The notes under the pieces: generated by a model
Told to the model about the DNA's origin: nothing
Seen by the model: only the letters and a program-made list of their open reading frames with translations
Databases searched by the model: none
Program-made: the position numbers and the translations under genes
Assembly: GCF_014202315.1 (NCBI RefSeq)
Contig: NZ_JACHGN010000001.1
Span: forward strand, 147,757-211,756
DNA from: Thermocatellispora tengchongensis
GTDB lineage: Bacteria > Actinomycetota > Actinomycetes > Streptosporangiales > Streptosporangiaceae
Direction of reading: 5' to 3'
Length of the DNA: 64,000 nucleotides
Shown here: one piece after another, positions 57,105 through 60,244 of the stretch
How positions within the stretch are numbered: position 1 is the stretch's first letter
Layout: every line of letters starts with the position of its first letter

Positions 57105-57181
57105 GGGGCTATAGCTCAGTCGGTTAGAGCGCTTCCCTGATAAGGAAGAGGTCCCAGGTTCAAGTCCTGGTAGCCCCACCA
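57105..57181 (+). tRNA. tRNA-Ile (anticodon GAU)
   Basis: The 74-nt cloverleaf has acceptor GGGGCTA/TAGCCCC, D-arm GCTC..GAGC, anticodon stem CTTCC/GGAAG with loop CTGATAA (anticodon GAT), and T-arm CCAGG TTCAAGT CCTGG. The 3' CCA is encoded (57179-57181). It follows gyrA as in related genomes; the tRNA-Ala normally beside it is absent, replaced by an integrase gene. Confidence 0.97.
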
Positions 57182-57225
57182 GCAAAAAGGCCGTAAGCGA
57201 TCAAGGGCCGTGCGTCACAGGTGCG

Positions 57226-58509
57226 TCAAACCTGCGAAGACGCTTCTCTGGTCTCCCTCCGTGACCACGACTCCAGGATCTTCCCGTGCGCGTCCGGCGC
57301 GAGGTGAGCGTACCTCTGCGTCGTCGCGAACGACTCGTGGCCGAGCAGGTGCTGCACGTCGTACAGCGGCACGCCATCCATCACGAGCCAACTCGCCGCC
57401 GTGTGCCGCATGATCTTCGGAGGGAACCGGCGAATCTGGTGCGCCGGGTCTGCGCACACCCCTGCACACTCGCCCGCCGGGAAGTCATGCCCTTCCGCGG
57501 GCGGCTTGCCGCACGTCCGGGCCGCGTCCACCGCCGGGTACCAGAACCGGTCCCGGAAATTCCCGTCATCGATCGGGCCGCCCTTCTCCGCCGGGAACAT
57601 CAGCCCCGGACACGGGCCGCGCCCCGGCTGCCGCTCACCGGTCGGCAGCACCCGCGGGCACGTACACGCGCCCACCGTCCGCCCGGCCGTCAGCTCCTCG
57701 ATCGCGTCCAGCAGCGCCGGCGGAATCGGCACCGACCGCCTCGACTTCTTCGACTTCGGATACTCCCGCAGCCCCGCCCGCGTCATCACGTGCGTAACGT
57801 GCACCAGCCGCCGATGCCGGTCCACACGGCCCACATGCAGCCCGTACGTCTCACCAGGGCGCAGCCCCACCTGCATGCCCAGCTCGACCAGAGTGCGCCA
57901 CTGAAGGCCGTACAGCCGCTCCAGAGCGCTGTACAGCGCCTCAGCCTCCTCCCGCTCGTAGAACTCGACCACGCCCAGGTCCAACGGCGGCAGATCGAGC
58001 CGCGCGAACGGGTTCGCGCCCACCACCGGCGGGTCCTCATCCATCGCCGCGGCGTACAGCGCACTCATCACGTGCACCGCGGCGTGCACCGTCGCCGCGC
58101 TGAGGGTCGGCACGTCCTTGTCGGACGCGCGCACCGCCCGGCCCTGATGGCGGGCCCGCCGCGTCTGCCGGAGCTGCTGGACCCACGCCTTTGCGTCGGT
58201 GCGCGTAACGGCGTTCAATGGCCACGCCCCCCACGCTTGCGCGCAATGCGTCTCCCACAGCGAATCCGTTTTCGCCAGAGTGCTGGCCTCCAACCCGGAC
58301 ACCGCCCGGACCTTTTCCCGCCACTTGCTGATCGTGATCTCTCCCGCTCGCGGATCAATGCGGGAGCCTGCCTCGAACTTGGCTTCCTGCTCGGTTGCCC
58401 ATTTCTTGACCACTGACTTGAGCCGGCTGGTCTTCGTCCGGCGCTTGCCGTTCGGCATGCGCACCGTGGCCTGATACTTGCCGCTCGGCAACTGCCGTAT
58501 GTATGGCAC
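57226..58509 (-). CDS. Site-specific tyrosine recombinase (integrase)
   Basis: This is a 427-residue integrase. The N-terminal arm-binding region (MPYIRQLPSGKYQATVRMPNGK) is followed by a SAM-like core-binding domain (about 60-175) and the catalytic domain. R217 lies in GLRPGE, R368-H369 in MRHTAASW, H391 in LLGHESF and Y400 in TQRYAHL. The first His of box II is replaced by K365. A ~70-residue insertion before box II carries six cysteines (282, 284, 300, 333, 348, 352), possibly zinc-binding. The GTG start is 6 bp after the hypothetical gene at 58516, so the two are co-transcribed. It integrates the element at tRNA-Ile. Confidence 0.95.
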   Translation of the reverse strand: MPYIRQLPSGKYQATVRMPNGKRRTKTSRLKSVVKKWATEQEAKFEAGSRIDPRAGEITISKWREKVRAVSGLEASTLAKTDSLWETHCAQAWGAWPLNAVTRTDAKAWVQQLRQTRRARHQGRAVRASDKDVPTLSAATVHAAVHVMSALYAAAMDEDPPVVGANPFARLDLPPLDLGVVEFYEREEAEALYSALERLYGLQWRTLVELGMQVGLRPGETYGLHVGRVDRHRRLVHVTHVMTRAGLREYPKSKKSRRSVPIPPALLDAIEELTAGRTVGACTCPRVLPTGERQPGRGPCPGLMFPAEKGGPIDDGNFRDRFWYPAVDAARTCGKPPAEGHDFPAGECAGVCADPAHQIRRFPPKIMRHTAASWLVMDGVPLYDVQHLLGHESFATTQRYAHLAPDAHGKILESWSRRETREASSQV

Positions 58510-58962: not shown

Positions 58963-59094
58963 GGCGCATCGTCCCTCTCTGCACCCCGTTGTGCCGTGGT
59001 GGTCGATATCAACACTTCGGCCACGCCCGTGACAACAAGATGGCGGAGATTTCGGACAACAGTGACAGCACAGTGGCTAGTGCGCTACACCACG

Positions 59095-59547
59095 TCACTC
59101 CGCGGAAGGGTCAGCCAAATCCGCGGCCAGCCGCTCCGCCATGCGAATGACCCGCCGGCGGTCCTCCTCGCTCAGGTTCGGCGGGACGCTGATCGTCACG
59201 AATCCCCCATCGGAGACAGGAATCGCCTCGACTTCGGACAGCTCCAGCCACTGCACCGCCGCCCACCGCTTGATCTCCTCCAGTCGGGTCCGGTAGTCAG
59301 GCTGGTCGGCACCGGACTCGACGGCAGCCATCCCCGCAGCTAGAGCCCGCAGCCGCCACATGTCCGGCAGGCGGTTGACGCTGCCATACATCAGATCCTG
59401 GATGTACCCGTGCAGGAGCGACTGCCCAGTCTCAGGGTCGATGCAGTACCTCGCGAACTGGCGGCCGGTCAGATCGTGCCTGGTCATGAACCGCTGCACC
59501 TGGTCACTCAGCGGGCGAGCCCTGGTGCCGTTGTTGAGCGGCGACAT
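59095..59547 (-). CDS. Putative XRE-like regulator / repressor of the element
   Basis: This 150-residue protein (ATG at 59547 with GGAAGG upstream) has an N-terminal helical segment, LSDQVQRFMTRHDLTGRQFARYCIDPETGQSLLHGYIQDLMYGSVNRLPD, that fits a Cro/C1-type helix-turn-helix. The C-terminal part is amphipathic and ends SEEDRRRVIRMAERLAADLADPSAE. It diverges from the XRE-excisionase gene across a 238-bp region containing an 18-bp palindrome. This is the usual layout of a lysogeny switch. A longer start at 59772 would run through the operator region and is less likely. Confidence 0.6.
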   Translation of the reverse strand: MSPLNNGTRARPLSDQVQRFMTRHDLTGRQFARYCIDPETGQSLLHGYIQDLMYGSVNRLPDMWRLRALAAGMAAVESGADQPDYRTRLEEIKRWAAVQWLELSEVEAIPVSDGGFVTISVPPNLSEEDRRRVIRMAERLAADLADPSAE

Positions 59548-59731
59548 GATGACGCCTTCCTGGTAGCCCTCGCCTAACTCGCGGACCTTGCCGTCTGATG
59601 ATTCGCACGACAGGCGCCACCCGCCCGTTGTACCGCGCACCTCTCCAGACAACAAGATGAGGCAATCAAACCAGACCTGTTCGGCTATACGCACGCCGGG
59701 GCTGGACATCGGCAGCACTGGGGGCGTACGG

Positions 59732-59749
59732 TGTTGGAATCTTCCAACA
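59732..59749. promoter_or_regulatory. 18-bp palindrome, putative repressor operator
   Basis: TGTTGGAA-TC-TTCCAACA is a perfect 8-bp inverted repeat in the divergent region between the regulator (59547, minus) and the fusion regulator (59786, plus). It lies 37 bp upstream of the plus-strand start, where a repressor would block transcription. Confidence 0.6.
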
Positions 59750-59785: not shown

Positions 59786-60244
59786 GTGTCAGGCCGTCCC
59801 CGGATGATCCTCCGCTCAAAAGATCACCTTCGCGAGATCATGTCGGCCCAGGGCCACGACACAGCCTCGCTGGCGCAGGCCACCGGCCTGTCAAAACAGC
59901 TCATCGACTACCTCCGGGGAGACGGGCCCTCCAGTCGTGAGACGTGCAGTCACAAGACGGCTCGACTGCTCGCGTCGGCCCTGAACGTCCAGATCGACAC
60001 CCTTTTTTGCGATCGACTGTTGGATTTTTCCTACACCAAACAGGAGGAGGACATGGACTCCTACACCGTCGCGGACGCCGCGGAGGTGCTGGGTGTCTCC
60101 CCGAGCACCGTCTACCGGCGCATCGCGGAGGGAGAGCTGGAGGCGTACGACATCTCCCGCCGCGGCTCCAGCCGACCCAACCTGCGCATCACCCGCACCT
60201 CGATCGAGGCGTTCCAGGCGGCCCGCACCGTCACCGCCGCCTGA
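59786..60244 (+). CDS. XRE domain fused to excisionase-type (MerR-like) helix-turn-helix
   Basis: This 152-residue protein starts at a GTG with GGAGG eight bases upstream. The first half is a Cro/C1 XRE domain: REIMSAQGHDTASLAQATGLSKQLIDYLRG and ARLLASALNVQIDTLF. The second half is a winged helix of the excisionase/MerR type: YTVADAAEVLGVSPSTVYRRIAEGELEAYDI with RITRTSIEAFQAARTV. A short AT-rich linker joins them. Such domains are usually separate proteins. An internal ATG with a strong SD lies between the two domains. Confidence 0.75.
   Translation: MSGRPRMILRSKDHLREIMSAQGHDTASLAQATGLSKQLIDYLRGDGPSSRETCSHKTARLLASALNVQIDTLFCDRLLDFSYTKQEEDMDSYTVADAAEVLGVSPSTVYRRIAEGELEAYDISRRGSSRPNLRITRTSIEAFQAARTVTAA
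60053..60244 (+). CDS. Possible internal in-frame start: stand-alone excisionase-like protein
   Basis: AGGAGGAGG (60042-60050) directly precedes an ATG at 60053 in frame with the fusion gene. Translation from here gives 63 residues, MDSYTVADAAEVLGVSPSTV onward, a complete excisionase-type domain. The SD is better than that of the full-length start and lies in coding sequence (KQEEDM), where no selection for it is expected otherwise. Confidence 0.5.
   Translation: MDSYTVADAAEVLGVSPSTVYRRIAEGELEAYDISRRGSSRPNLRITRTSIEAFQAARTVTAA

Follow-up and report, generated by a model that had tools for sequence, protein, structure and literature searches.

An open frame at 59786-60244 on the plus strand of the window (the whole stretch of 64,000 nucleotides analysed here, in whose numbering all positions are given) joins a Cro/C1-type domain to an excisionase domain, and the linker between the two appears to carry within its codons both an operator and the ribosome site for the second domain. 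What is new here is this predicted second operator copy in the linker (O2), which co-varies among homologous loci with the operator predicted at the cro promoter (O1). We consider it reasonably probable (about 0.6) that one rightward transcript gives rise to both the full-length Cro-Xis protein and free Xis, and that a repressor bound at O1 and O2 silences the unit.

The sequence itself displays the domains, a frame that is always retained, an internal start kept among homologues, the co-variation of O1 with O2 and the survival of this pair where cro is lost; from these we infer the two products, the divergently encoded repressor (Rep) as the binder, a roadblock or loop, and the excision activity. 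Transcription from the cro promoter (P_cro) would run rightward and yield full-length Cro-Xis, while initiation at the internal ATG would yield free Xis, the linker DNA thereby doing three jobs as flexible tether, as operator O2 and as the site where ribosomes would start on xis. During lysogeny, Rep would sit on O1, at the promoter start, and on O2, and block initiation; occupancy of both sites would either form a DNA loop or stall leaking polymerase before xis, and the excision protein would stay silent for as long as the repressor persists. Upon induction, Cro-Xis would be made at the same time as Xis, coupling the switch to excision.

A fused gene in the immunity region of a prophage

A complete siphovirus-type prophage of ~36 kb is inserted in tRNA-Ile, and the fusion gene sits in its immunity region; the prophage interior codes for primase, large terminase, portal, protease, and major head and tail proteins. 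The gene order is integrase (minus strand), a small gene (minus), a divergent gene for 150 amino acids (minus, 59095-59547) and the cro-xis fusion (plus). The stop-free translation of the latter amounts to 152 amino acids from a GTG start with its own Shine-Dalgarno (SD) sequence, CGGAGG. As originally predicted, two domains share this single frame. The first (59786-60007) matched the Cro/C1-type family HTH_26 of Pfam at residues 14-74 (28.1 bits; cut-off, 22), and the N-terminal half was assigned to cro-like repressors by PHROG profile. The second half matched HTH_17 of Pfam at residues 93-147 (48.6; cut-off, 27) and TIGR01764 ('excise') of NCBIfam (34.5 bits; cut-off, 28.8), and the 63-residue form that would be free Xis (60053-60244) matched HTH_17 by itself (1.6e-13). 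The second half scores as an excisionase by these matches, and presumably acts in excision.

Structure prediction agreed with the proposal of two separately folded halves, as the AlphaFold2 model (pLDDT 80.6, albeit built on four sequences only) comprises two folded domains and a low-confidence linker, with residues 79-88 under pLDDT 50. The best Foldseek matches of the first half were Cro/C1-type controllers including C.BclI and 434 Cro (all E > 0.001), and the second half matched mycobacteriophage Pukovnik Xis (4j2n; TMt 0.8, E above 0.001). A stop codon missed between the domains, which would have undone the original prediction, was looked for and none was found, since four relatives at about 41-46% identity read through the junction; a missed stop or an artefact as the source of the fusion is thus ruled out.

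Homologues were compared at 13 loci carrying both Cro and Xis, most of which are prophages in members of the host's family, including two under the name Nonomuraea; the phage, plasmid and viral collections searched for homologues gave partial phage or plasmid matches only and few viral contigs. cro and xis are fused in 10 of the 13 loci and are separate genes in the other three (G214, G296 and G019). Two families of excisionase are separated at 100/100 support. Fused and separate members occur in both, so that more than one event of fusion or fission is probable. Two further loci (G216 and G198) have no cro, which appears to be dispensable there.

The N-terminal half had been taken for an XRE repressor making the lysogeny decision. 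That assignment did not survive: this half occupies the Cro position, the first gene of the lytic operon and divergent from the predicted repressor gene, and the fusion is best explained as the first lytic gene of a temperate phage. The immunity repressor is likely to be the product of the separate divergent gene at 59095-59547, a homologue of which is kept opposite cro at 12 of the 13 loci (G019 has a different gene in that position). No Pfam, NCBIfam or PDB family matched Rep and its AlphaFold2 model was too poor for use (pLDDT 57.7), so that DNA binding by Rep is argued from its position and conservation. At other loci (L144, L146, L147, L150, L151 and L170), a Rep homologue diverges from a gene whose product is predicted to be secreted or lipoprotein-like, and no neighbouring cro or xis was found.

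Between the two genes, a rightward promoter, P_cro, was predicted from the sequence at 59703-59732 (plus strand; -35 TGGACA, 18 bp, -10 TACGGT), and nearly all loci have TAnnnT directly 5' of O1 or overlapping it. A conserved element before rep (GACAACAAGAT..TCAAACCAG, 59648-59674, minus strand), alike in homologues, is probably a control site of the rep promoter. The prophage has exactly three copies of GACAACAAGAT, on both sides of rep (59031-59041 and 59648-59658) and about 75 bp from attR (92919 in the window's numbering, minus strand).

Predicted operator copies at the promoter and in the linker

The predicted operator O1 (GTTGGAATCTTCCAAC, 59733-59748) follows the -10 hexamer of P_cro, and the predicted O2 (GTTGGATTTTTCCTAC, 60019-60034) lies about 286 bp downstream, inside the linker codons and just before xis. 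These two were the only matches to TTGGAANNTTCCAA at up to two mismatches, in the 64-kb window as well as in 60 kb covering the prophage, the window's O2 having two mismatches in its arms. The operator sequences vary by locus, and the linker copy tracks its own promoter copy, as exemplified by the pairs in G296 (TGATGAATCATCA) and G225 (GTTCGATTAATCGCACAAC / GTACGAACAATCGCACAAC); the end of O2 stands 12-22 nt from the xis start across loci. In 11 of the 13 loci, no more than 4 of 200 shuffles equalled the match between the linker and its own P_cro region, nor did any other segment tested; in this comparison among related loci, 200 shuffles per locus allow no P value below about 0.005 to be claimed. 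In G158 and G170, the match by itself was not significant. A position-free repeat search returned O1/O2 as the best pair in 10 of the 13 loci, missed the pair in G158 and G175, and found it in G170 at a non-significant level.

In the two loci lacking cro, two operator copies nevertheless flank its place before xis, and a Rep homologue lies alongside. This persistence of the pair where cro is lost favours Rep as the putative binder of O1 and O2, albeit Xis, or Cro where present, could bind the operators alone or share the sites. A different reading, that O1 and O2 are autorepression sites for the Cro domain or Cro-Xis and not for Rep, seems unlikely to us. It would account for the recognition-helix residues of Cro, which vary between loci with differing operators, and for standalone Cro-like genes, with no xis noted adjacent, that carry O1/O2-type copies 5' of the gene and at its 3' end (L047-L051, L117 and L118). 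Nevertheless, it sits poorly with the retention of both operators in the absence of cro, and with the third operator copy that adjoins rep in G198. In lambda, CI and Cro share operator sites, and both Rep and Cro may do likewise.

Three other roles of the operator pair were considered and rejected. Strict helical phasing is incompatible with a spacing that ranges from 253 to 296 bp, a sigma-70 promoter for xis at O2 was dismissed as no TAnnnT was seen there by eye, and an RNA hairpin over the SD was discarded as the folds were not clearly better than shuffles (z from -1.6 to 0.1).

A run of six T (60003-60008, plus strand) ends 10 nt before O2. No other T6 or A6 occurs in the prophage (35.8 kb, 71.1% G+C), and the run requires the rare codons CTT and TTT, which make up 3.1% of Leu and 6.5% of Phe codons in the prophage genes. 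Runs of five or six T have a density of 0.32 per kb, and in nine of the 13 loci one of them lies 10-12 nt before O2. The nine comprise the five fused loci with an Xis of the window's family, all of which have T6 with a 10-nt gap, and G214, G296, G225 and G226, which have T5 with gaps of 10-12. Three of the 13 loci have no run of four or more T near O2 or have one at gap 15 only, G019 has T5 at gap 23, and the standalone Cro genes examined lack the run (CTGTTC or CTCTTC in its place). A polymerase that meets a bound protein halts about 14 bp upstream of it, and the T run would coincide with the expected place of a polymerase stopped at O2. It is attractive to speculate, as a tentative possibility, that the linker is a repressor-dependent terminator written in codons, in which RNA polymerase, halted by repressor bound at O2, stops with its active site in T6. 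The weak rU:dA hybrid would then free the transcript, and read-through into xis and the lytic genes would be cut only with the repressor present. A programmed frameshift at T6 was rejected, as no good slippery codons were seen by inspection and a shift exits the xis frame.

The ribosome site at the junction

The strong SD and in-frame ATG that the original prediction placed between the domains are indeed present. The internal SD (AGGAGGAGG, 60042-60050, plus strand) lies upstream of the ATG at 60053-60055, from which 63 codons remain in frame with the fusion, and AGGAGG-N5-ATG, with an expectation of 0.38, occurs twice in the 64 kb. Ranked by 16S pairing energy, this ATG was the best of the four in-frame ATG/GTG codons. 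The ATG or GTG at the junction likewise had the best SD energy within the xis frame at all 13 Cro+Xis loci, which is more than chance; in a ranking that compared starts within these genes only, it also topped all starts of the gene in 12 of them, the exception being the window, where it was second of seven over all frames.

Conservation of the SD and start codon in homologues had been set beforehand as a test of the prediction, and both were present at 13 of 13 loci. All 10 fused homologues retain them at the junction, linker residues differ, and GGAG sits in differing codon phases among loci, so that RNA rather than protein seems to be kept. In the three loci with separate genes, xis itself begins at the junction start. 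From these observations we infer that both Cro-Xis and free Xis are made from one gene. That the full-length protein is made is argued by the distance between the LF motif and the xis start, which varies from 14 to 18 residues in the fused loci with the frame always kept.

It is improbable, in our judgement, that only the full-length two-domain protein is made, as a single regulator-excisionase similar to Apl or Cox with a purine-rich linker that merely codes for acidic residues. Purine-rich Glu and Lys codons do look like an SD, the frame is retained in 10 loci, and Apl of phage 186 is one protein capable of both jobs (PMC7498355); nevertheless, the start codon and SD, and not the linker residues, are what all 10 fused loci retain, and the junction start is the real xis start in the separate relatives. 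We see similarly poor prospects for the opposite reading, in which ordinary cro and xis are the working genes, the fusion is a by-product of stop loss, and only O2 and the SD are selected at the junction: the separate versions in G214, G296 and G019 have the same O2 and start and cro is dispensable in G216 and G198, but linker length changes across 10 diverged loci never break the frame.

Known switches and the attachment sites

Roadblocks, elongation-stopping repressor sites, distant operators and dual-purpose excisionases are all known already. Second operators downstream of the promoter exist in TP901-1 (O_D) and in lac (O2, inside lacZ), and resemble the present one, albeit the O2 described here also codes for the tether of the fusion protein, close before the xis start. 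O_D of TP901-1 is able to support looping (PMC4941734), and roadblocking of transcription by bound proteins has been reported (PMC10310618). The stoperators of L5-type mycobacteriophages are repressor sites away from the promoter, and a role in halting elongation has been proposed for them (PMC9283540). In L5 they are asymmetric, 13 bp long and more than 20 in number across the genome, whereas the present prophage has O1/O2-type sites only twice, both near-palindromic and one of them within a coding linker.

The lambda-type cI/cro and actinophage rep/cro/xis cassettes share with this locus a repressor gene that diverges from cro and an xis gene farther downstream. The annotated phages that we inspected encode Cro and Xis by separate genes, not by a fusion as here; phage Karkharias, for instance, has int(-), HTH(-), HTH(+) and HTH(+) as separate genes. 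Cox of P2 and XisF4 of Pf are cases related to Apl of phage 186, and in these systems, too, switch control is coupled to excision (PMC7498355, PMC7379572). Apl, Cox and XisF4 each serve both roles as one protein, those of the Cox/Apl type with one DNA-binding domain, whereas the present fusion adds a Cro-type domain of its own to the excisionase domain and is accompanied by a candidate free Xis. In the open-licence literature, we found no description of a Cro-excisionase fusion, nor of one with a linker operator. If the mechanism proposed above is genuine, a single short stretch of DNA has been under selection for three functions at once, those of protein tether, operator and ribosome site, and a prophage has a route to lock its excision protein onto the lysogeny switch. 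Nature also offers this switch in versions with cro and xis fused, with the two separate and with cro missing, a set that lends itself to testing.

The attL core, the 3' half of tRNA-Ile, lies at 57137-57179, and the identical 43 bp recur as attR at 92994-93036 in the window's numbering. A tyrosine integrase is encoded at 57226-58509 on the minus strand (PF00589, 2.9e-18; phrog_1, 3.1e-51). In the stretch that separates the att core from the integrase gene's end, direct repeats of GTGCGTCA, 11 bp apart (57210-57228), are a candidate Xis-binding arm. The tRNA-Ile 3' segment is present three more times, in series, at 92994-93036, 100741-100786 and 111589 in the same numbering (loci L033 and L034), which suggests tandem integrated elements behind the prophage.
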